A DNA stretch of 40,025 nt from Clostridia bacterium (GTDB lineage: Bacteria; Bacillota; Clostridia; Oscillospirales; CAG-272), in the NCBI GenBank assembly GCA_017532025.1, contig JAFXJX010000075.1, positions 1-40,025 on the forward strand. Reading direction: 5' to 3'. Below, piece by piece: positions 4,803-31,456 of the stretch (position 1 is its first letter; each line of letters starts with the position of its first letter). The notes under the pieces were generated by a model. That model searched no databases, was not told where the DNA came from, and saw nothing but the letters and a program-made list of their open reading frames with translations. The translations under genes and the position numbers were made by a program.

Positions 4803-4837
4803 AAAAGCTGTGTTGAAAAAACACAGCTTTTTTATTT
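4803..4837 (+). terminator. Bidirectional terminator between antiporter and PocR-AraC genes
   Basis: AAAGCTGTGTT and AACACAGCTTT form a hairpin with T-runs in both directions. It serves the antiporter gene rightward, and its downstream edge overlaps the end of the convergent regulator gene. Confidence 0.85.
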
Positions 4838-5662
4838 TCTTTCCTGCTTTATCTGTCGGTAAGCGGTGGGCGAGTATCCTGTTTTTGCCACAAAAACTTT
4901 TGAAAAATACCCCTGATCGGGAAAACCGCATCGGCGCGCCACCACGCCGATCGGCTCATCGCGATGCCGCAAAAGCCCTTTTGCCATTTCCACACGTCGC
5001 TCGGTCAGATACTCACCGAGTGTCATACCCGCATTCTTTCTGAAATGGTTCATCAAGGTGGATTTAGAACAGTGAAACACCGCACACAGATGCGAAATCG
5101 TCAGTTTTTTTTCAATGTTCTTGTCAATATACTCTTTGATCGAATCGGCAAGGTCCTCTGAGGGTACATGAATGGAGCTGAGATAGGCAACGTGCTCGGC
5201 ACAGATCGTCATAATGTGAGAAAAAGCCGTTATTGTTTCTTCAGATAGCGCCGGCAGCTCGGCAAGGCAGGTTTTCACCTCCTCTTGCTCATCGGTGTAG
5301 CGAAATGCCGCGCTCAAAATCTGCTGTTCGGACGCGCAGGTACAATCCTTGCCCTGCCCCATCATCAAATACCCCACAAGAATGCCGTTACGGTAGAGCG
5401 GACAGGCCGCTTCCCAAAGCCCAAACCGACATTTGTACAGATACATCTTGCCTGTATCACATACCTTTTCCATTGCTTCTCTGTCGGCGGCAAGACAGCG
5501 CGCTTTGGCTTTGGGATTTTTTTGCACGAGCGCACAAAAACGGGAGAGATTTTCAGGGCAAGAAACAAGCTGATGAAAATCAGTATCGTGGATTGAAATA
5601 TGAAGTCCCGACGTTTTATGTAAATCTTGCAGAAGCTCCGCAATCGCAGGCAAAGTAAACAT
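4832..5662 (-). CDS. PocR-domain AraC-family transcriptional regulator
   Basis: A 276-residue regulator. Residues 5-160 form a PocR-type sensory domain: KTSGLHISIHDTD, Cys residues at 43, 56, 68 and 78, ACPLYRNGILVGYLMMGQ, then a helical part. Residues 170-272 are a double helix-turn-helix AraC domain (KKLTISHLCAVFHCSKSTLM and the closing GFPDQGYFSKVFVAKTGYSP). PocR domains sense small metabolites. The ATG at 5662 is chosen because AAAGGAG lies eight bases upstream; a GTG two codons earlier is too close to it. The gene is divergent from nagB, with overlapping promoters, so control of amino-sugar catabolism is the natural inference, though not proven. Confidence 0.88.
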   Translation of the reverse strand: MFTLPAIAELLQDLHKTSGLHISIHDTDFHQLVSCPENLSRFCALVQKNPKAKARCLAADREAMEKVCDTGKMYLYKCRFGLWEAACPLYRNGILVGYLMMGQGKDCTCASEQQILSAAFRYTDEQEEVKTCLAELPALSEETITAFSHIMTICAEHVAYLSSIHVPSEDLADSIKEYIDKNIEKKLTISHLCAVFHCSKSTLMNHFRKNAGMTLGEYLTERRVEMAKGLLRHRDEPIGVVARRCGFPDQGYFSKVFVAKTGYSPTAYRQIKQERK

Positions 5663-5805: not shown

Positions 5806-6567
5806 ATGAAAATTTACATTTGCCAAAATTACGAAGAAATGAGCGCACACGCCGCTGACCTCATTGCGGGACAAATCAAAGAAAAGCCTGATTCTGTCCT
5901 TGGTCTTGCCACAGGCTCTTCCCCCATCGGACTTTACAAGGAGCTTGTAGCTCGCAACCAAAAAGGCGAAATTTCCTTTAAGAACATCAAAACCGTCAAT
6001 CTCGACGAATACTGCGGTCTCACCGCCGACAATGACCAAAGCTACGCTTACTTCATGAACCAAAATCTGTTCAACCACGTGGATATTGATAAAGCCAACA
6101 CCAATCTGCCCGATGGCACAAATCCCGATGCAGCGGCAGAATGCGCCCGTTACGATGCGCTGATTGAATCGCTCGGCGGCATTGACATTCAGCTTCTCGG
6201 CATTGGTCTGAACGGTCACATCGGCTTTAACGAGCCTTCCGACACCATCTCGCTCGGCACCAACCACGTTGCCCTCACCCAAAGCACCTTTGAAGCCAAC
6301 GCCCGTTTCTTTGCTTCGATCGACGATGTACCGCGCTACGCTTACTCGATGGGTTGCGGCTCGATTCTGAACGCCAAAAAGATCCTGCTCGTTGCCAACG
6401 GCAAGGGTAAGGCTGAAATTCTGGAAAAATCCTTCTTCGGTCCTGTTACTTCGCAGGTCCCTGCTTCGCTTCTCAGACTCGTTTCGGATAAGGTTTACAT
6501 CTTTGCCGACAAGGAAGCAGGCGCACTCCTTCTTGAAAATCACCCCGAGGAGGTAATTGTACTGTGA
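5806..6567 (+). CDS. nagB: Glucosamine-6-phosphate deaminase NagB
   Basis: A 253-residue cytosolic enzyme of normal length, converting glucosamine 6-phosphate to fructose 6-phosphate and ammonia. Visible family signatures are LGLATGSSPIGLYKEL (31-46, phosphate-binding loop), NLDEYCGL (65-72, with catalytic Asp67) and GIGLNGHIGFNEPS (132-145, with His138 and Glu143 of the catalytic relay). AAAGGA precedes the ATG. The last bases overlap the nagA start as GTGA, and a GGAGG for nagA lies inside the nagB end, so the two are translationally coupled. With nagA it would feed N-acetylglucosamine, from cell-wall or host glycans, into glycolysis. Confidence 0.95.
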   Translation: MKIYICQNYEEMSAHAADLIAGQIKEKPDSVLGLATGSSPIGLYKELVARNQKGEISFKNIKTVNLDEYCGLTADNDQSYAYFMNQNLFNHVDIDKANTNLPDGTNPDAAAECARYDALIESLGGIDIQLLGIGLNGHIGFNEPSDTISLGTNHVALTQSTFEANARFFASIDDVPRYAYSMGCGSILNAKKILLVANGKGKAEILEKSFFGPVTSQVPASLLRLVSDKVYIFADKEAGALLLENHPEEVIVL

Positions 6568-7650
6568 AACTTCAAAACGTAAACCTGTATGACAGTACTC
6601 TGAAAAAGTTCGTGCAAGGCACGCTTTCGGTTGAAAACGGAAAAATCCAAGAGATCACCTATCAAAACGACGTAGCAGACGGCGACCTCATCATCCCCGG
6701 TCTTGTGGACGTACACACCCACGGCAGAGGCGGCTTTGACTACAACACCGCCACTCTGGAGCAAATGAAGACCATGAAGCGTCTGTATGCCGAACAAGGC
6801 GTGACCACCGTTGTGCCCACCTTGGCATCCGATACGCTTGACAATCTCATCTCCTCGATTGAAAAAATCCGCGAAGCAGGCTATACAGCCGTTCACATGG
6901 AAGGCAGATACTTAAACGAAAAGCGCCGTGGCGCACACGCCGCGCATCTCATTGCACCTCTCACAGCTTCCGAGGTTGCGCTTTTAAGAGAAGCGGCAGG
7001 CGATATGCACCTGCATATTTCCGCATCGTATGAGCTTGATCAGAGCGGAGAATTCCTCAAGGCAGCAAAAGAAAACGGCGCCACCGCCGGTCTTGCGCAC
7101 ACCGATGCCACTTACGATCAAGCTATGACCGCTGTTCAGAACGGTGTGATCTCCTTTACGCACCTCTTCAACGCCATGCCCCCTGTCCACCACCGCGCAG
7201 GGTGCTGTGATGGCAGGTCTGATCTCGGATGCTTACACCGAAATCATCTGCGACGGCTTCCATCTCGCTCCCGAAACGGTAAGACTTGTGAAAACCGCCA
7301 AAGACCCCTCGCGCGTGGTGCTGATTACCGACTCAATGGAAGGCACAGGTTGCCCCGACGGCGAATACAGCATCGCAGGCAATCCCGTCTATCTCAAAGG
7401 CGGCAAAGCCTACACGATCGAAGGTGCAATTGCCGGCAGCACCTTAGAGCTTCTTGACGGCGTGAAGAATTATGCAAACTTCTCTGCCATTTCCTTTGAA
7501 GAAGCACTCCCCGCGGCAACCATCAACCCCGCCACCATGCTCTCACTCGAAGGTGTGGGCGCACTCAAAGAAGGCAACCTTGCTAACTTTGTTCGCCTTG
7601 CCCCCGACTTCACGATCAAAGAAGTTTACGTCGGCGGAGAGAAAATTTAA
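6564..7650 (+). pseudogene. nagA: N-acetylglucosamine-6-phosphate deacetylase NagA, frameshifted
   Basis: Two overlapping frames together give a complete NagA of about 362 residues (family about 380). The first frame has the metal site VDVHTHGRGGFDY, HMEGRYLNEKRRGAH and THLFNAMPPVHHRA. It then shifts at 7200, and the second frame resumes GAVMAGLISDAYTE, through VLITDSMEGTG with the catalytic Asp, to the normal end. Family members read HHR-x-PG at this point. The bases GCA-G-GGT fit GCACCGGGT with two C missing, so a two-base deletion (or one-base insertion) is likely. Read as is, the product is 297 residues ending in unrelated sequence and lacking the catalytic Asp. The rest is undamaged, so the event is recent or a sequence error. 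The start is GTG at 6564. Confidence 0.9.
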
Positions 7651-22181: not shown

Positions 22182-22218
22182 AAACAAAGCCACCGAGAAG
22201 GTGGCTTTGTTTTATTAT
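22182..22218 (+). terminator. Bidirectional terminator between membrane protein and GH92 genes
   Basis: CAAAGCCACC and GGTGGCTTTG form a strong hairpin with TTTTATTATTT rightward. Leftward it follows the GH92 stop directly, with a shorter T-run. Nearly the same hairpin is reused at 26449-26487. Confidence 0.85.
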
Positions 22219-25200
22219 TTACTTTTTCTTTTTGGAAAAGACACTGAACATCACGCCGCCACCAAGAGCAACAAGTGCCATCACGCCAGTGCCAATGATC
22301 AAAGCAAGCGAAGAATCACCGCCGTCACCGCCTGTGGTAACAGGTGTTTCGGGCGTTTCGGTTTTATCGGTAGTTTCGGGTGTGAGGGGTTGCTCATTTT
22401 TTTCGGTTGTATCAGGTGTCATCGGAGGTTTGACCGGTGTGTTTGTTCCGTCATCGGCAGGCGTCTTCGGCTTTGCCGAAAGCGCGCCGGCTTCTCCATC
22501 CTTGGCGAGGGTCAAGAGTTCCACCTCAGCCACCTGCATGGTGTCGTTGCCAAAGAAAGTCAGGCGGTAGTACTTGTAGTTACCGAATGTTTCATCGGGA
22601 ACTTCAAACGCATAGGTGTATTTTGTCCACTCGAATTGGAGATTTTCTCTTTCGTCAAGCGTCACCCAAGCTTCGCCGTCGGCGGAAGCTTCAAGCTTCA
22701 GACCTTTTGGCGCTTGGTTTTTGTTATTCGATGTCACAGTGTACATCCAAAGACGGGAAGGATTGCTTGAAGTCACCACAATGCTTGTGCCGTTTTTCAC
22801 AGTGGTATAAGTATTGCTGTTGTTATCGAACAGCTTTTTGCCGTCCGCAATGCCGTTAAGATATACCGTATTGGTCGTAAAGCCTTCGCCAAAGGCGTCT
22901 TCGCTCATTTTGTAGCGCGAAGTCACAATGTCCTCAGCAGGGTCAGCCTTTTTCGTGCCGCTTGTCAGCGAGGTAGGAGATGTACCCTTGCCCCAATCGG
23001 AGGGGGTGTCACCCATCTCAAACACAAGCGTTGCGCCGTTTGCGATCACGTCATGGTCAATGAACGCGTCGTTATGCGCCTTGCCGTTTACCGTCAGCGA
23101 TTGTACATACACGTTCTTGTCGGAATTGTTGTTGGCAATGATGACAAGATCCTTGCCGTTATCCATGTGGACGGTCATTTTCTTGAACAAAGGCGAGCCG
23201 ATCACGTATTCACCGCTTGCCATGGTCTGCGGATACAGACCCATTGCGGACAGCACGTACCATGCCGACATTTCGCCGTTGTCCTCGTCCCCAAGGTAAC
23301 CTTGACCGATCTCTGAGCCAACATACAGGCGTTGCATCACCTCGCGCACAATTTCCTGCGTGCGATAAGGCGCACCCGCATATGCAAAGAGATACGGAAT
23401 TGCGTGCGCAGGCTGATTCGAGTGCGAATAAATACCCATGCGCACTTCCCTTGCCTCTGCCATTTCGTGAATCGAACCACCCTCTACCTTGACCGATGCT
23501 TCATAGCTGTCATCAAAATAGGTATTGAGTCTCTGAAGCAGCGCCGCCTTGCCGCCAAAGAGATTGGCAAGTCCGTTGCCGTCATACACGGGCGCAAACA
23601 GCATGGTCCAACCGTTGGTTTCGGAATAATCACCCCACCAACCGTAAGGGTTGTAGCCCGAGCCGGATGACCAGCCGCCCGAGGAATTCTTGCCCATGAA
23701 GAATTTCAGCTGCGGATTGTACAGATTCACATAATAAGCTGCGCGATTGTAGAAATAGCTTGCCATTTCGTCATAGCCGAGCTTTGCCGCCATTGCCGCA
23801 ATGCAGTAATCCGAAATATAATCCTCCATCGTCCAAGAGAACGCATACTGCACGTTTTTGTCATTCGGCACGTAGCCTGTAAAGATTGCGGTGTTGTTCT
23901 CTGCTCTGCCGCCGTTTGTTACGTTGGGTGAAACAGTCGCCGCGTTTTTCAGCATCGATTCAAAGGCAGTTTCATAGTCAAAGTCAATACCCTTGATATA
24001 CGCGTCGGCAAAAATGATATCCGAGCTTGTGCCAAGCATCGAATCGGTACCGCCGGGCGCCACCCAACGCGGAATCCAGCTGTTATCGCGGTAGTGTTGC
24101 AGAATACCGTCAAGAAGCTCGCCGTCAAATTCAGGCGTTAAGAGCGCATACGCCGCCCATGCGGTGCGGTAAGTATCCCAAAAGCCGTTGTTGACGTACA
24201 GTTTGCCATCGGTCACTCTGCCCGATTTGTAAGGGCTCGCATAGACCCACTCGGGATTCTCGTTCGTGCCGCGGTTTTCGCTGTACAGCGTGGGGTAGGA
24301 ATACATACGGTAAAGATTGGAATAAAGCGTCACAAGCTGTGTGTAGCTCGCGCCTTCCACTTCAACAAGTGAGCAAACATCATCCCACGCCTTTTGTGCC
24401 TTGTTCAAAATGTTTGTCTCCGAAAGCTCAAGCTCCATGTTGTGCAAAGCCTGCTCGGTACTGATAAAAGAGGTAGCAAGCTTCATGAAAACCTGTGTTG
24501 TGCCTTTGGGGAATACGGCAATACCCTGCTTGCCGCTTACCTTGTAGGTGCTGGGTTTTGTGCTGAAAGAACCCGCAACGTACAAGTTACCCGAGCCGCG
24601 CTCGGTATGCTCGCTTTTTGCGGTAAATGTGCCGTCTTTGGCAAAGGAGAGCGCACCGTTTGCGCGCACACAGTCAAACACAATATTCACGTTATCCGAA
24701 TCCTCCGGGAACGTGAACAGTACGTAAACACCGTGTACGGTGGGTGTCATTTCCACCTTTACGCCGTCGGCGCGGCTACCCTCGTCAAAGGTCACGCCGT
24801 AATAATGCGCTCTGGCAATTTCGTTTCTGTGTGAGAAGGTTGCACCGAGATTTTCCGTCTTCATGCTATCCGCAGTCACCTTGGAAAGATTGGATGAATC
24901 AATCGACGTGTTTGCCATAAACTGCCAAGTACCGTAGTCACCTGTCCAGGTAGAGGCAATATGCGTGATACTAAAATGCTTGATCTCCTTTTCAAAGTAG
25001 CTGTAATGCGTGTTTGAGCCCGGATTGGTCACAGGCGTCACCATGTTAAAACCGTTCGGCATATTGATAAAGGGCGTTGTCAAGCCGCGCGAAAAGCTTG
25101 TGGTATTGTTCGTGCCGCGCAACGTGTTGATATAGTCGGAAGGATGCTCAAAACTCGGGGCACTCTTGTTTTCAATCACAAGCGAGTCGAAGAAAGCTTG

Positions 25201-26367
25201 GAACTTTTTCGCCGTCTTGTTTTCATTCTTGTGGTAATAGACATACACGCTGTCGATCGTTTTGCCCTTTGCCACATCGGCAAGTGCCGTTTCCACATAG
25301 TTCCACTGATCGGAATATAAGCTGTCACCCTCGCCCTTGGCAATCGGCGTCATGCCATAGCCATTTTGGTCGTATGCGCCAAGAGAAGAAAGATACGTGC
25401 CGTCGGTAAACTTCAGATCAATCATCATGTAAGCCGCCGAATATTCGTAGTCATACCCATCAGCAGTCGAAAGATAATGCACATAATGAAGCTTTGTGGT
25501 ATCGGTGACTTTGATGTTCAGCCCCGAATAGAGGAGGTTTCTCGCATAGCTCTCACCCTTATCGGTTTGCTTGGCAAATACCGACAAAGCGCGTCTGCCC
25601 TCAAAAGCGCCGCTTGCCACCCAGGATGAAGCAGGACCCTTGGAAGTGATTGTTTGCAGAGGGGAATCTCCCTTTTCTTCGTCGCTTCCCGCCACACCTG
25701 TGCCGAGATACAAATCGGCAAACTGCGTCATATTGGAAGAGCCGTTGTTTTGGGTAATTTCAAGCTTGTAATACTGATATGCCGCGGTATTGTCAAGCGA
25801 GTAGTGCTTTGTCATGTGTCGCGCCGAAAACGCTTCATTCGTGCGCGTGTCAAGCAGTGTAAAATCAAGACCGTTGTTCGAGCCGTACAGCTTCCAGCTT
25901 TTGGGGTCGCGCCCCGGCTCGTCATTGCCCGAGGTGATGGCATAAACACCAACCGTCTGCGCTTCGGTGAGAGCAAAACTCACCCACACGGGAGAGGTTG
26001 CCGACGGCTTGGTTTCGGTTAAGAATTTGCTGCCTTTTGAAGAGTCAAACAGCTTGACCTTGCTCTCCTCGCTCTTAAAGTCTTTTGAACCCTGCACCGT
26101 AGCAAGATCCACAAGCTCGGTAAAATCGCCCGGAATGACAGAGACAATTTCATACCGTTCAAGCCCCTTATAGTAGCCTTCGTCTGACTTCGATTCGTGG
26201 ATTGCATCGTCACTCGTTTCAAACGAGGAAGAAAACAAGACCTCATTCTTTACAGGATCCACGGTATCCGCCGCGCTCGATGGAAACGAAAGCGGCATGA
26301 TCGGCAAAGCACCAAGCAATATCACAATTGCCATAAAAACCGCCATGATTCTGCCAAACTGTTTCAT
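22219..26367 (-). CDS. Secreted GH92-family alpha-mannosidase with discoidin-like modules and C-terminal anchor
   Basis: A 1382-residue surface enzyme. Signal peptide 1-33 (ends PSSAAD). A discoidin-like (F5/8 type C) module spans about 75-222. A second beta-rich region (about 235-400) precedes the GH92 core (about 420-1125): RGLTTPFINMPNGFNMVTP, DTYRTAW, MLGTSSDIIFADAYIKG, and GDEDNGEMSAWYVLSAMG (1026-1043), in which Glu1032 matches the family general acid. A further discoidin-like module (about 1150-1290), a Pro/Thr linker and a membrane helix with KKKK tail follow. No LPxTG is visible. GH92 enzymes are Ca2+-dependent inverting exo-mannosidases acting on N-glycans and yeast mannan; the linkage here is not predictable. 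GGGGGG precedes the ATG. Confidence 0.92.
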   Translation of the reverse strand: MKQFGRIMAVFMAIVILLGALPIMPLSFPSSAADTVDPVKNEVLFSSSFETSDDAIHESKSDEGYYKGLERYEIVSVIPGDFTELVDLATVQGSKDFKSEESKVKLFDSSKGSKFLTETKPSATSPVWVSFALTEAQTVGVYAITSGNDEPGRDPKSWKLYGSNNGLDFTLLDTRTNEAFSARHMTKHYSLDNTAAYQYYKLEITQNNGSSNMTQFADLYLGTGVAGSDEEKGDSPLQTITSKGPASSWVASGAFEGRRALSVFAKQTDKGESYARNLLYSGLNIKVTDTTKLHYVHYLSTADGYDYEYSAAYMMIDLKFTDGTYLSSLGAYDQNGYGMTPIAKGEGDSLYSDQWNYVETALADVAKGKTIDSVYVYYHKNENKTAKKFQAFFDSLVIENKSAPSFEHPSDYINTLRGTNNTTSFSRGLTTPFINMPNGFNMVTPVTNPGSNTHYSYFEKEIKHFSITHIASTWTGDYGTWQFMANTSIDSSNLSKVTADSMKTENLGATFSHRNEIARAHYYGVTFDEGSRADGVKVEMTPTVHGVYVLFTFPEDSDNVNIVFDCVRANGALSFAKDGTFTAKSEHTERGSGNLYVAGSFSTKPSTYKVSGKQGIAVFPKGTTQVFMKLATSFISTEQALHNMELELSETNILNKAQKAWDDVCSLVEVEGASYTQLVTLYSNLYRMYSYPTLYSENRGTNENPEWVYASPYKSGRVTDGKLYVNNGFWDTYRTAWAAYALLTPEFDGELLDGILQHYRDNSWIPRWVAPGGTDSMLGTSSDIIFADAYIKGIDFDYETAFESMLKNAATVSPNVTNGGRAENNTAIFTGYVPNDKNVQYAFSWTMEDYISDYCIAAMAAKLGYDEMASYFYNRAAYYVNLYNPQLKFFMGKNSSGGWSSGSGYNPYGWWGDYSETNGWTMLFAPVYDGNGLANLFGGKAALLQRLNTYFDDSYEASVKVEGGSIHEMAEAREVRMGIYSHSNQPAHAIPYLFAYAGAPYRTQEIVREVMQRLYVGSEIGQGYLGDEDNGEMSAWYVLSAMGLYPQTMASGEYVIGSPLFKKMTVHMDNGKDLVIIANNNSDKNVYVQSLTVNGKAHNDAFIDHDVIANGATLVFEMGDTPSDWGKGTSPTSLTSGTKKADPAEDIVTSRYKMSEDAFGEGFTTNTVYLNGIADGKKLFDNNSNTYTTVKNGTSIVVTSSNPSRLWMYTVTSNNKNQAPKGLKLEASADGEAWVTLDERENLQFEWTKYTYAFEVPDETFGNYKYYRLTFFGNDTMQVAEVELLTLAKDGEAGALSAKPKTPADDGTNTPVKPPMTPDTTEKNEQPLTPETTDKTETPETPVTTGGDGGDSSLALIIGTGVMALVALGGGVMFSVFSKKKK

Positions 26368-26401
26368 AAGAACCCCCCAAAAATATTTTCGTTACGGTTA
26401 C

Positions 26402-26430
26402 ATTGTATCACATGTTTCCAATTATTTCAA
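26402..26430 (-). promoter_or_regulatory. Promoter of the GH92 gene
   Basis: TTGAAA, 17-base spacer, TACAAT preceded by TGA. No cre-like site was evident near it. Confidence 0.83.
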
Positions 26431-26448
26431 CAAAGAAAATCATTTTCC

Positions 26449-26487
26449 CAAAAAAGTTAAACAAAGCCACCTTTCGGTGGCTTTGTT
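26449..26487 (-). terminator. Terminator of lipoprotein 1 gene
   Basis: Leftward, ACAAAGCCACC pairs with GGTGGCTTTGT over a GAAA-type loop, followed by TTAACTTTTTT. Confidence 0.82.
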
Positions 26488-26502
26488 TTGACATATGTAA
26501 AC

Positions 26503-27732
26503 TTAGGGTTCCTGGTAGAAGAGAAGCTCGGAAGCCTGCCAGAGTTCGCCGTTTTCAGCAACGAACTTGAAGTACTGATAGGTTGCTACGTTGTCAAGAG
26601 CGTAGTATCTTTCCAAGTAGTTTGCGCTGATAGGAGCCTTGTCGATGGCATTGCCTTCGGCATCAAGACCGTCAGCTGCATAGATCTCGGTCCATGTGCC
26701 TTCTTCGCCGGTTGCAGAGCCGTAAAGCTTAAAGGCAACGATGGTTCTGCCGTTGGAGTTTGCGTTATCGTTCGCGTTAACGATCGAGAAGCCAACAACA
26801 TTCAGAACTTCAGAATACTTAACCGTAGTAGCCTTGTCTTCGCCGTTGTCACCGGTGCAGATCTTGGTTTCAACCTTGCCGTCAAAGAACTTTTTGTAGT
26901 CTTCGCCGTTGCCCGAGTCGGGACCTGCAAGAGGTGTTGCCGTTGCCTGGTCAACAACAATAAGGTTGGTAGGACGGTTTTTGTCAGCGATCATAACCTT
27001 TTCTTCGGGCTTGGTGTGAGTATAGGGGCCCCAAAGATCATCGCTGGTGAGGTCTGCAAAATAAACCACGTTCTTTTTGGAATCGTAGATATCGATTCTT
27101 ACCTGCTCGTAGGTGTACTGGTTGTTTTCATCGTATTCAAAGAGGCTCCACTTAAAGTCAGGGCCAAGGTCGATACGCACCCAACCGGAGGTGTTGTTGT
27201 TAAAGAGCGAGAATCTCTCAATTTCCCATTCTTTGCCTTCAATGGTAACAACCCAAGTATAATCCGAGCTGGGTTCCCAGTTGGTGTTGGTGTTTTCGTT
27301 TTCGGTATCAACGATAAAGAGGTCGTTATAAACGCCGCCCTGATCGTTCATGCTGATAACGAGCGCCACGTTGTTGTCGAGCGATGCATGGAAGTCTTCA
27401 AACGCAAAGAATGCGGAGTCCATGTTACTGATTGCCATGTAGCCTTCTTCCCACAGAAGGTCGATGCCTTCCTGTGCGGGAGGTGTTACAGGATCGGTGT
27501 CGGGAGTGGTGGTGGTATCGGGAGTGGTGGTGTCGTCACCGGGCTTTGCAGCAGTGGTGTCGTCACCGGGAGTGGTGGTGTCTACGCCGGGCTTTGCTGC
27601 GGTGGTGTCTACGCCGGGCTTTGCAGCAGTGGTATCAACGCCGCCCTTGGTCGTGGTAGGAGCATCGCCGCCGCAAGCAACAAGTGCCAGCGCAAGAAGA
27701 GCAACTACCGCAACAATAAGAAGCTTTTTCAT
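26503..27732 (-). CDS. Lipoprotein 1 with Thr/Pro-rich repeats and discoidin-like domain
   Basis: A 409-residue lipoprotein: signal MKKLLIVAVVALLALALVAC with lipobox LVAC and Cys20. A low-complexity linker (about 26-85) of repeats such as GVDTTAAKP and GDDTTTP follows. Next comes a beta-rich domain (about 88-250; FEDFHASLDNNVALVISM, GWVRIDLGPDF), and last a discoidin-like domain (about 275-409; KFFDGKVETKIC, AFKLYGSATGEEGTWTEI, NVATYQYFKFVAENG). It is a paralogue of lipoprotein 2, and its last domain resembles modules of the GH92 enzyme. A binding protein tethered outside the membrane is likely; the ligand is unknown. The ATG at 27732 has AAGGA seven bases upstream. Confidence 0.88.
   Translation of the reverse strand: MKKLLIVAVVALLALALVACGGDAPTTTKGGVDTTAAKPGVDTTAAKPGVDTTTPGDDTTAAKPGDDTTTPDTTTTPDTDPVTPPAQEGIDLLWEEGYMAISNMDSAFFAFEDFHASLDNNVALVISMNDQGGVYNDLFIVDTENENTNTNWEPSSDYTWVVTIEGKEWEIERFSLFNNNTSGWVRIDLGPDFKWSLFEYDENNQYTYEQVRIDIYDSKKNVVYFADLTSDDLWGPYTHTKPEEKVMIADKNRPTNLIVVDQATATPLAGPDSGNGEDYKKFFDGKVETKICTGDNGEDKATTVKYSEVLNVVGFSIVNANDNANSNGRTIVAFKLYGSATGEEGTWTEIYAADGLDAEGNAIDKAPISANYLERYYALDNVATYQYFKFVAENGELWQASELLFYQEP
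27500..27660. repeat. Tandem repeats encoding the lipoprotein 1 linker
   Basis: Degenerate units of about 27 bases (GTGGTGTCTACGCCGGGCTTTG-like, each 20 or fewer bases conserved) encode GVDTTAAKP and variants. Neighbouring copies are close enough for slippage or recombination to change the linker length in frame. Confidence 0.8.
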
Positions 27733-27798
27733 AGTAAATTCCTTCCTTTCCATAAATGGATCTGGTTAATCCGGTAATATTTTCCTTACCGTACTGTT

Positions 27799-27827
27799 AT
27801 TATAGCACAAAAAATCAGGGAATGCAA
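27799..27827 (-). promoter_or_regulatory. Promoter of lipoprotein 1 gene
   Basis: TTGCAT, 17-base spacer, TATAAT with TG one base before the -10. The leader holds a small hairpin, GGTAA/TTACC (27772-27789). Confidence 0.87.
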
Positions 27828-27907
27828 CTGATTTTTTTGAAGAATTCTTGACCAAGCTTGTACTATTTCCTTTTTTTGAAAAAATTTCCGCCATACTCTC
27901 CCTATCA

Positions 27908-27944
27908 ACAAAAAAACGCCCGCACTTTTGAAGTGCGGACGTTC
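27908..27944 (-). terminator. Terminator of lipoprotein 2 gene
   Basis: Leftward, AACGTCCGCACTT and AAGTGCGGGCGTT pair with one mismatch, followed by TTTTTTGTTG. Confidence 0.87.
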
Positions 27945-27979
27945 AGGTTCAAAATATCAAAGGATAACCAGATAATCGA

Positions 27980-29224
27980 TTATTCCTTGGTCCAAAGCAT
28001 GATGCCGGACATCTGGTATGTGCTGGTAACGTCGAGCTCGAGCTTGAAGTAGCTGTATTCAACACCCTTAGCGAGCTTGAAGTTTCTTTCGGCGTAGTTG
28101 GAACCTTCGGTAGCAGCTTCACCGTTCTTTTCATCGATGAGAGTCCAGTTATTACCGTCGTTGGAGCCGTAGAACTTGAATACGGTAGGAATACGGCTGG
28201 GATAGGTCTGGTCATCGCCTGCGCCTACGAGAGAGTAGGAGGTAACGTACTTAGCTTCATCATACTTCCAAACGATGGGAGTAGGAACTTCGCCGGAATC
28301 GCAAAGCTTGGTCTGAACGTTGATCTGATCGTCGTCGGTGCGGTCGAAGAGGTTGGTGTAGTGCTCGCCGGTGTAGCCTTCAGGACCGGAAATAGCAGTA
28401 GCGCCGGTAATTTCAACTTCTGCAGGGTCACGGTTGGGGTCAGGATCAAGTTCGGTGGGCTTCGGAGGCACAAACTCATGAACGCCGTTCCATTCGGGGT
28501 CGGTCATGTAAGCATAGAAAACAACGGGTTCATTATCTTTGGTAACGTCAACGATGCGAAGTTTGATTTCGGCGTATCTAACCTTGCCATCTTCATCCTT
28601 TGCCTTGAGCTCGAAGTCGGGACCAAGGTCGAGACGAACATAACCGTAGGTGGTAACGTGGTAAACCGAGAATCTTTCGATAACGTGATCTTCGCCTTCA
28701 AGGGTAAGAATCCACTTATAGTCTTCGTTCATCACCCAAGTGTCTTCGCCGCCTTCCTCATCGGAGGGAACCGTCATAACAAGTTCAGTGTACCATGCGT
28801 TTTCGCATTCCTGGAAGAGGATAACGTATGCCCAGTTCATGTCAAGAGAAGCGTGGTGGTTTTCAAAAGCACCTACATTCATGTCTCCGGTCAATCCCGC
28901 GGGATTGATGGCGCGGTCTTCTTCAGTACCGTTCAGAATGTCGATACCTTCAACACCGGGAAGGACGGGGGTGGTGTCGTCACCGGGCTTTGCAGTGGTG
29001 TCGTCACCGGGCTTTGCAGTGGTGTTGTCGCCGGGTTTTGCGGTGGTGATAACGCCGGGCTTTGCAGCGGTGGTGTCGTCACCGGGCTTTGCAGCGGTGG
29101 TGTCAACGCCGGGCTTTGCAGCGGTGGTGTCAACGCCCTTGGTGGTGGTAGGAGCATCGCCGCCGCAAGCAACGAGTGCAAGCGCAAGAAGAGCAACTAC
29201 CATAACAATAATCAGCTTTTTCAT
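27980..29224 (-). CDS. Lipoprotein 2 with Thr/Pro-rich repeats and discoidin-like domain
   Basis: A 414-residue paralogue of lipoprotein 1 in the same order: lipobox LVAC (Cys20); linker about 26-90 of GVDTTAAKP, GDDTTAKP and GDNTTAKP units; a beta-rich domain (about 92-255; FENHHASLDMNWAYVIL, GYVRLDLGPDF); and a discoidin-like domain (about 275-414; VFKFYGSNDGNNWTLID, GVEYSYFKLELD). The two proteins share motifs throughout but clearly differ in the mature domains, while their signal-peptide DNA is almost the same. AAAGGA lies ten bases before the ATG. It has its own promoter and terminator, so the pair can be expressed separately. A surface binding role is inferred. Confidence 0.88.
   Translation of the reverse strand: MKKLIIVMVVALLALALVACGGDAPTTTKGVDTTAAKPGVDTTAAKPGDDTTAAKPGVITTAKPGDNTTAKPGDDTTAKPGDDTTPVLPGVEGIDILNGTEEDRAINPAGLTGDMNVGAFENHHASLDMNWAYVILFQECENAWYTELVMTVPSDEEGGEDTWVMNEDYKWILTLEGEDHVIERFSVYHVTTYGYVRLDLGPDFELKAKDEDGKVRYAEIKLRIVDVTKDNEPVVFYAYMTDPEWNGVHEFVPPKPTELDPDPNRDPAEVEITGATAISGPEGYTGEHYTNLFDRTDDDQINVQTKLCDSGEVPTPIVWKYDEAKYVTSYSLVGAGDDQTYPSRIPTVFKFYGSNDGNNWTLIDEKNGEAATEGSNYAERNFKLAKGVEYSYFKLELDVTSTYQMSGIMLWTKE
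28965..29150. repeat. Tandem repeats encoding the lipoprotein 2 linker
   Basis: Seven or so units of 24-27 bases (GTGGTGTCGTCACCGGGCTT-like) encode DDTTAKPG and VDTTAAKPG. Units of both 24 and 27 bases occur, which shows past unit loss or gain in multiples of three. Confidence 0.82.
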
Positions 29225-29271: not shown

Positions 29272-29300
29272 ATTATAGCATACAAAAGTAAAAAAAGCAA
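29272..29300 (-). promoter_or_regulatory. Promoter of lipoprotein 2 gene
   Basis: TTGCTT, 17-base spacer, TATAAT with TG one base before the -10. The leader has a small hairpin, TTTCCT/AGGAAA (29242-29257). Confidence 0.86.
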
Positions 29301-30061: not shown

Positions 30062-31396
30062 TTATCGTTTCAACAAACTCTTATGCGGAAAGGGGTTTTT
30101 CAGGTTATCCCAAAAAAGGAACAAATATCCCTCTTCTGCCGAAACCGTAGCTTCTTGACCCACAAAATGATTGCTCACGCCAAGTGCCTTGTCCTGAAGT
30201 AGCGTACCGTTGCACAAAGGGTACAAAAGCCCTTCGATCGAAACGCCCTCGCAAACTTCACTTGCCGCAAAAACTGACAAAATACCCTCGCAGGTCTGAG
30301 AAAATTCAAAGCACTCACCACCGCAAAGTACCGTCACAACACCCTCTTTGCCCACAAGATAGGCAGAAATACCACGTTTGGCAAGCGACAAAACAAGCGC
30401 CATATTGGCAAGCGTGTGGTCAAGCCGACCGCCCGTACCGCCAAACAGGAAAAAGCTGTCGCATCCGCGGGCAAGCCCTTCTTTTACGGCAAGCGCCATA
30501 TCGGTATCATCCTTCATCACAGGGAAACGAAGCGTTTCCACCCCCTCGGGAACAGTTCCAAGCGAATCAAAATCACCCACGGCAAGGTTGGGCTTGATGC
30601 CGTAGGCTTCGGTATGCAGCAACCCGCCGTCGGCGGCAATCACAAAGGCATCGCGCGCAAGATCACGCAATTCTCCGTGATAGTCTCCCGCGCCAAATAT
30701 ACAGCACCTCGCGCATCCTCCAAAAGAATCCCACACACCGCCTTCGGGTAGCGGCAAAGAAAAGGTCATATATTCACCGCTTGTCGGATGGTGAAAGCCG
30801 ATGCAAGCCGAAAAAAGTGCTACGTTTTGCCCGCCAATCGTCGATCCATAGCGTTTATCCCCCACAAGCGGATGGCGGCGCGAAGCAAACTGCACGCGAA
30901 TCTGATGCGTGCGCCCCGTGCCAAGCTTCACGCGACAAAGTGAAAGCGCACCCTTTTCGGTTTCAAGTGCCGAAAGCACGCAAAACGTCAGCCGCGCGTC
31001 CTTTACCCCCGCTCTCTTGCGGTCGGTGACGTAGCTTTTGTTTTTCTTCGCATCGCGAAAGAGGTAGTCAAACATCTCCCCCGCTTTGCCAAGGTCAGCT
31101 TCAACATTGCCCTCGCAAACGGCAAAATATTCTTTTTGCATCCCACCGCGCGCAATTTCCTCAGAAAGTGCCGCCGCGCTCTTTTTGTTTTTGACAAATA
31201 CCATCACGCCGCCCACTGCGGCGTCAAGTCGGTGGAGTACGTACGGCGTTGCTTTTTCGCCTGTTTGGGCAAAGTGCTCCGAAAGCAACGTCAGCATATC
31301 GCTTCCCTTGCCCTCGGCATCGGCTTGCGACAACACCCCAACAGGCTTTTCACATACGACGATGGCGCGGTCTTCATATAAAATATTGAGTTTCAT
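30062..31396 (-). CDS. RluA-family pseudouridine synthase fused to thiamine pyrophosphokinase
   Basis: A 444-residue two-enzyme fusion in one uninterrupted frame. Residues 1-215 form an RluA-type pseudouridine synthase without S4 domain: KPVGVLSQ, HRLDAAVGG with catalytic Asp58, and GRTHQIRVQF (161-170). Residues about 230-432 form thiamine pyrophosphokinase: AADGGLLH (254-261), GDFDSLG (274-280), DDTDMALAV (296-304) and GGTGGRLDHTLAN (319-331), the Mg-ATP and thiamine site. One half would modify RNA uridines; the other makes thiamine diphosphate. Both sets of key residues look intact. The ATG at 31396 has GGAG five bases upstream. Separate genes are the norm, so this fusion is unusual. Confidence 0.92.
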   Translation of the reverse strand: MKLNILYEDRAIVVCEKPVGVLSQADAEGKGSDMLTLLSEHFAQTGEKATPYVLHRLDAAVGGVMVFVKNKKSAAALSEEIARGGMQKEYFAVCEGNVEADLGKAGEMFDYLFRDAKKNKSYVTDRKRAGVKDARLTFCVLSALETEKGALSLCRVKLGTGRTHQIRVQFASRRHPLVGDKRYGSTIGGQNVALFSACIGFHHPTSGEYMTFSLPLPEGGVWDSFGGCARCCIFGAGDYHGELRDLARDAFVIAADGGLLHTEAYGIKPNLAVGDFDSLGTVPEGVETLRFPVMKDDTDMALAVKEGLARGCDSFFLFGGTGGRLDHTLANMALVLSLAKRGISAYLVGKEGVVTVLCGGECFEFSQTCEGILSVFAASEVCEGVSIEGLLYPLCNGTLLQDKALGVSNHFVGQEATVSAEEGYLFLFWDNLKNPFPHKSLLKR

Positions 31397-31456
31397 GGTC
31401 ACTCCGAAATCATGTTCTTTACGTTCTTGTGTTGCGGACAACCTAAACTTCCAATA

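Follow-up and report, generated by a model that had tools for sequence, protein, structure and literature searches.

What do two stalked lipoproteins do on the surface of a Clostridia bacterium when their genes stand next to that of a predicted alpha-mannosidase? The question is raised by a 40,025-nucleotide stretch of DNA, the window (contig JAFXJX010000075.1 of assembly GCA_017532025.1), in which three neighbouring leftward open reading frames (ORFs) encode the lipoproteins lipo2 and lipo1 and a glycoside hydrolase of family GH92. A first-pass annotation, made from the sequence alone, had described three surface proteins with a common discoidin-like module, and had seen in them a minimal Gram-positive analogue of a polysaccharide utilisation locus (PUL). 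The three ORFs are present on the minus strand (Table 1), and the six strings quoted for the module (KLYGSNNG, KLYGSATG, KFYGSNDG, YQYYKLEI, YQYFKFVA and YSYFKLEL) were all recovered in the translations. The reading we favour, with about even confidence, is that the lipoproteins are tethered glycan binders that cooperate with the adjacent, separately transcribed surface GH92. The lipoproteins also carry a second domain, domain A, an orphan domain that they have in common with sigma-linked receptors and that the first-pass annotation overlooked.

The module common to the three proteins belongs to CBM32, as profile, BLAST and structural comparisons agree. The likeness is not due to chance, since a profile built from 18 lipoprotein modules matches the GH92 module, which was outside the profile, with E=3.4e-16, BLAST of the lipo2 module against the GH92 module gives E=6e-14, and the AlphaFold model of the lipo2 module matches the CBM32 fold with Z 16.9. 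The latter is the first-ranked PDB match, to residues 84-223 of NnGH92 from Neobacillus novalis (7nsn; root mean square deviation (rmsd) 2.1, 135 aligned, 27% identity); 4lks is matched with Z 16.2 (rmsd 2.8, 141 aligned). The lipoprotein profile detects both CBM32 domains of NnGH92, the N-terminal one with E=1.1e-20 and the C-terminal one with 2.9e-11 (together 1.3e-35). PF00754 scores 24.0 and 22.4 bits in the two lipoproteins, below the Pfam gathering score of 28.2.

In NnGH92, the N-terminal CBM32 binds mannoimidazole through contacts from Glu105, Asp148 and Arg152, and Phe122 stacks (PMC10167667). In a profile-to-sequence alignment, the three contact residues map to invariant columns of the lipoprotein module. 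We read out this triad across every module detected in the fetched loci. It is present in 18/18 distinct lipoproteins, a count that is a property of the alignment used to build the profile, and in 7/7 GH92 N-terminal modules, whose rows are independent of that alignment; the complete triad is found in none of the six detected GH92 C-terminal modules. The lipoprotein CBM32 is, as judged by its sequence, a putative carbohydrate binder with intact hexose-contact residues.

The GH92 protein matches PF07971 (E=6.2e-133), PF17678 (E=1.2e-27) and, in two stretches, PF00754, and it scores above the curated cut-offs of both Pfam (444.6 bits vs 24.6) and NCBIfam (TIGR01180, 451.4 vs 249.55). In a residue-for-residue alignment with 2wvx/2wvy, SETNGW pairs with TEGNSW and GDEDNGEMSAW with GDEDNGQTSAW; we take the Glu in S/T-E-x-N-x-W and the Asp pair in GDEDNG to be the catalytic acidic residues. 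The IHE of the protein aligns with the IHE of 2wvx and the Trp is kept (STW / SPW), and a His-Glu motif together with the Trp of the +1 site presumably marks the alpha-1,2 subgroup. A Thr/Pro-rich linker lies between the C-terminal F5/8C module and the hydrophobic segment, which is followed by KKKK. In kind with the multi-domain NnGH92, the protein is probably an exo-alpha-mannosidase anchored in the membrane, with alpha-1,2 as its linkage. NnGH92 is also the nearest solved relative by sequence, and because it aligns over residues 8-1285 (E=5.8e-272), the discoidin modules belong to a known multi-domain GH92 architecture and the enzyme is a fresh member of an already known type. Like NnGH92, it spans an N-terminal CBM32, a CBM-like split domain, a catalytic domain and a C-terminal CBM32. 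Unlike NnGH92, it ends in a linker and a hydrophobic anchor instead of a four-helix bundle, and its C-terminal CBM32 is without the triad.

Lipo1 and lipo2 are paralogues along their whole length and not in the module alone (BLAST, 41% identity over 433 columns, E=5e-69). The architecture common to their family is a lipobox, a Thr/Pro-rich stalk, the orphan Ig-like domain A and CBM32. When lipo2 was searched against 59 genomes, matches were found in 10. Full-length relatives occur in all seven genomes of one genus (g1; metagenome-assembled genomes (MAGs), 56-98% complete) and in 0/52 other genomes, the three other matching genomes having the discoidin part only. The family comprises 18 full-length lipoproteins from seven species of the genus, with 3-4 in each of five species and one each in G003 and G004, and its members are 28-64% identical to lipo2. 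The 18 are distinct proteins (locus L101 repeats L090), and outside them stand larger domain A surface proteins and a 242-aa relative that ends before CBM32 (G001:C25, L085 331-1059). The relatives that have names are MAGs of Clostridia, and several carry labels of goat, sheep or roe deer hindgut, in a listing that may omit the window and very near records.

Domain A covers ~140-160 residues. The AlphaFold model of the lipo1 copy, built with 11 sequences, is all beta with short helices (predicted local distance difference test (pLDDT) 87.8, predicted template modelling score (pTM) 0.83). The domain has no Pfam match, its profile finds nothing better than E=0.095 in the PDB, and Foldseek returned zero matches among the PDB and viral models at E<=0.001, antibody-like rows being set aside as generic Ig-like matches. 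Assignment to a known fold was rejected, as the best VIA-align match (6nav; Z 5.4, rmsd 3.4, 95 aligned) lies in the background range of the tool; an absent match is not proof of a new fold. Searches of two overlapping sets, 117 relatives (E<=1e-5) and 394 genomes of the order (E<=0.001), detected domain A in the seven genomes of genus g1 and in two genomes of that genus, respectively; the remaining 110 and 392 genomes gave no match. It has conserved core positions, and together with CBM32 it also forms the end of large surface proteins whose repeats are GLUG-like or of BspA type. Domain A is a well-bounded, confidently folded orphan domain of one genus, placed on lipoproteins, large surface proteins and sigma-linked receptors, and this holds even if the lipoproteins are not glycan binders. 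It opens an experimental route to the recognition of host or fungal mannose glycans by uncultured hindgut Clostridia.

The sigma-linked receptors are single-pass proteins that end in domain A and are encoded directly after genes for extracytoplasmic function (ECF)-type sigma factors, mostly overlapping them (G000:C14 with two copies, G000:C20 and G001:C266). They have a single hydrophobic segment near the N-terminus. Of the two copies in the G000:C14 receptor, the second shares 47% identity with domain A of lipo1. Among the best 25 families, the sigma partners match sigma70-ECF TIGR02937 with 67.9 and 92.7 bits (cut-off 42.9). At G001:C266 (L135 3820-7161, minus strand), the genes for the sigma factor and the receptor are followed by one for a lipoprotein in which the receptor outer region recurs together with domain A. 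In the syntenic region of G000 (L079), the receptor itself bears domain A twice, as if by fusion. Another locus (L104 1284-3906) encodes an ECF-type sigma factor and then a single-pass protein that combines BspA-type repeats with a CBM32 carrying the triad; among the sigma-linked proteins, a CBM32 was found only here. Gene order and topology suggest that the domain A receptors may have an anti-sigma function. The receptor outer region was detected in only 2/7 species of the genus, which disfavours a role essential to the genus.

A comparison for these receptors is the SigI/RsgI biomass sensing of Clostridium thermocellum, as described in PMC4711584. In both, the gene after the sigma gene encodes a single-pass protein, and the outer module of this protein is also found on surface proteins. 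However, the domain A receptors pair with ECF-type sigma factors and are encoded outside the window, and no sigma-specific promoter was seen at the three window genes. The receptors at L079 6045-7931 and L080 3357-4757 match no Pfam family at E<=0.01, the RsgI N-terminal domain included, so we did not file them as RsgI. A literature search for anti-sigma with CBM32, and a broader one for ECF with sugar binding, gave no title that concerns such a receptor. As far as searches by title go, the lipoprotein family, the orphan domain A and its reuse on sigma-linked receptors appear undescribed; the lipoproteins and receptors themselves belong to known kinds, CBM-bearing surface binders and CBM-bearing sigma-linked receptors.

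The first-pass annotation had given each of the three genes its own promoter, and we indeed found three sigma-A-type promoter-like sites, all with TG upstream of the -10 element, and terminator-like hairpins between the genes. The sites are consensus matches, not mapped transcripts; similar ones are found at the G001 orthologues. The three genes are therefore neighbours with no evident operon. The hairpins at 22183-22211 and 26460-26487, one on each side of GH92, are perfect and almost identical (AACAAAGCCACC...GGTGGCTTTGTT), and these two are the only exact copies in the genome assembly.

Long-type GH92 is encoded in all seven genomes of genus g1, directly downstream of a lipoprotein in four of the seven species (G000, G001, G002 and G005). 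The downstream gene is visible for 15 lipoproteins, the other 3/18 being at contig edges: it is GH92 in four cases, another family member in four and something else in four, and at the remaining three loci (G000:C11, G001:C287 and G005:C111) it encodes a 700-aa CBM32-bearing lipoprotein that has an HEMTH motif. The linkage to GH92 is therefore real but lineage-specific. For the conserved HEMTH lipoprotein, no informative family beyond F5/8C and no PDB relative were found. In the GH92 tree, G000+G001 and G002+G005 form clades (both 100/100).

Is the locus a PUL? The definition of a Gram-positive PUL (gpPUL) requires a transport system and a regulator (PMC5320581). GH92 provides a polysaccharide-degrading enzyme. 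In a Pfam scan of the 33 window ORFs, the transport-type matches were one Na+/H+ antiporter and one protein of the manganese-efflux type, so that no carbohydrate transport system is present at the locus, and the earlier remark that no transporter or sugar kinase is present holds for sugar transporters and sugar kinases. No regulator is present at the locus either, the only such ORF, of AraC/PocR type, being ~17 kb off among unrelated genes (4832-5473). With neither transporter nor regulator beside the genes, we rejected membership of the minimal Gram-positive PUL type, and the proposed analogy falls short of the definition. What stands of the enzyme-and-binder proposal is a surface alpha-mannosidase, two tethered, apparently non-catalytic stalked proteins with the triad, and linkage to GH92 in 4/7 species. 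The locus resembles the gpPULs of Roseburia/E. rectale in that a surface glycan-degrading enzyme is adjoined by other glycan-related genes, but it differs in having no adjoining transport system or regulator and a separate promoter-like site for each gene. Bacteroides SusD and the surface glycan-binding proteins (SGBP) are lipid-tethered, non-catalytic glycan binders near glycosidases. The window lipoproteins are also lipid-tethered, apparently non-catalytic and near a glycosidase, but with other domains, no SusC/D-type transporter and a Gram-positive-type surface. Elsewhere in the genus, a sister species (G004:C27, L142 4078-15444) has a second GH92, located behind a transporter of the ABC sugar type, and the same genome as the window encodes a GH38 alpha-mannosidase (L140 3922-6477).

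If the lipoproteins are glycan binders that work with GH92, three cell-surface genes would be transcribed separately, and the flexible stalk would raise domain A and CBM32 of the lipid-tethered lipoprotein from the surface. CBM32 would then keep mannose-ended glycans (yeast mannan or host N-glycans) near GH92, the anchored enzyme would trim mannose from the held glycans, and transporters encoded elsewhere would import the released mannose. Across the genus, the family tends to sit directly upstream of secreted CBM32-bearing proteins, namely GH92 in four species and the HEMTH lipoprotein in three. If so, Gram-positive gut bacteria without SusD-type proteins would have glycan binders of their own, tethered by lipid, each gene of which is paired with one for a secreted protein that bears CBM32. 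The upstream flanks, which differ by clade (a HAD hydrolase in G000/G001, and in G002/G005 a protein that we take to be ABC-F-like), count in favour of this reading; the flanking regions may nevertheless share an origin, since the window too has a SpoU-type methylase gene (36506), at a distance of 7 kb from lipo2. Several further observations weigh against it. The triad is also kept by many other discoidin modules of genus g1 and so does not name mannose as the ligand, and each gene has a housekeeping-type promoter, hence no visible co-induction. The first-pass annotation had expected its proposal to fail if the lipoproteins occurred widely without GH92 neighbours, and the genus gives a divided answer: 4/15 lipoproteins precede GH92, but the GH92 genes of G003, G004 and G006 have no lipoprotein neighbour (a GH2 protein sits upstream in G004), and G006 has a lipoprotein pair without GH92. 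The adjacency in the two clades may have been inherited from few events. The authors of the NnGH92 study, moreover, were unable to show CBM32 binding in solution (PMC10167667).

In the main rival, unlikely in our judgement yet to be taken seriously, the lipoproteins are general surface adhesins that attach the cell by CBM32 and domain A to mucus, fibre or neighbour cells, with GH92 next to them only incidentally. The presence of the family in all seven species, mostly away from GH92, the triad being generic in the genus, and the pair of domains at the end of the large repeat proteins would all fit adhesion. An incidental neighbourhood is harder to reconcile with seven loci (four with GH92, three with the HEMTH protein) at which a secreted CBM32-bearing protein, on the same strand, comes next after the last lipoprotein of the group. 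A sensory role is less probable still: CBM32 would capture glycan and domain A, as a genus-specific sensing or relay module, would engage the domain A receptors that hold ECF sigma factors, so that capture is reported to transcription. It would account for domain A on the three sigma-linked receptors, for its close likeness between lipo1 and the C14 receptor, for the lipoprotein that trails the G001:C266 pair and for the related triad-bearing CBM32 at L104, and it would amount to a glycan-sensing system of RsgI-like logic whose sigma, receptor and binding parts are unrelated to those of RsgI, with lipoproteins as co-receptors. However, the receptor ectodomain is confined to two species, the putative anti-sigma function of the receptors is read from gene order and topology, and ECF control of the three window genes was discarded, as all have sigma-A-type sites and show no sign of it. 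Very improbable, finally, is a varied surface coat (e.g. phage or immune decoys) with domain A as a mere spacer and no role in feeding. The paralogue expansion, the fast divergence and the Thr/Pro-rich stalks would suit it, but the invariant triad and the conserved domain A core point to selection on a function.

Table 1 Features of the three-gene locus (window coordinates) and of the HEMTH lipoprotein (coordinates of the named loci)
Feature	Coordinates	Strand	Description
lipo2 promoter-like site	29272..29300	-	TTGCTT-N17-TATAAT
lipo2	27980..29224	-	414-aa lipoprotein; lipobox Cys20, Thr/Pro-rich stalk, domain A, CBM32
lipo2 domain A	28439..28948	-	
lipo2 CBM32/discoidin module	27983..28438	-	triad present; best structural match 7nsn N-terminal CBM32
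Terminator-like hairpin 3' of lipo2	27914..27944	-	hairpin and T run
lipo1 promoter-like site	27799..27827	-	TTGCAT-N17-TATAAT
lipo1	26503..27753	-	416-aa lipoprotein; probable start ATG at 27732; lipobox, Thr/Pro-rich stalk, domain A, CBM32
lipo1 domain A	26983..27468	-	orphan Ig-like beta-sandwich
lipo1 CBM32/discoidin module	26506..26982	-	triad present
Terminator-like hairpin 3' of lipo1	26459..26488	-	
GH92 promoter-like site	26402..26430	-	TTGAAA-N17-TACAAT
GH92 exo-alpha-mannosidase (predicted)	22219..26367	-	1382 aa; signal peptide, CBM32, GH92 N-terminal and catalytic domains, F5/8C, linker, hydrophobic anchor and KKKK
GH92 N-terminal CBM32	25705..26112	-	residues 86-221; Glu/Asp/Arg triad present
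GH92 N-terminal and catalytic domains	23008..25134	-	residues 412-1120
GH92 C-terminal F5/8C module	22516..22839	-	residues 1177-1284; triad absent
GH92 C-terminal hydrophobic segment	22252..22308	-	residues 1354-1372; presumed membrane anchor
Terminator-like hairpin 3' of GH92	22182..22212	both	
HEMTH lipoprotein, L078	8520-10622	-	conserved, 700 aa
HEMTH lipoprotein, L083	2649-4736		conserved, 700 aa
HEMTH lipoprotein, L095	8618-10735		conserved, 700 aa

Two further observations were made in the window. An amidohydrolase at 6564-7650 on the plus strand is divided between two ORFs that are read in different frames and cover PF01979 profile positions 2-185 and 187-343; either a nagA-like gene has undergone a frameshift or the sequence contains an error. 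The amidohydrolase adjoins a glucosamine-6-phosphate isomerase-type gene (5806-6567) and the AraC/PocR-type regulator (4832-5473). At 30062-31441 on the minus strand, a 459-aa ORF encodes an RluA-type pseudouridine synthase fused to a thiamine diphosphokinase, and its counterpart in G001 consists of two genes with a 4-base overlap (L082 6372-7070 and 7067-7714).

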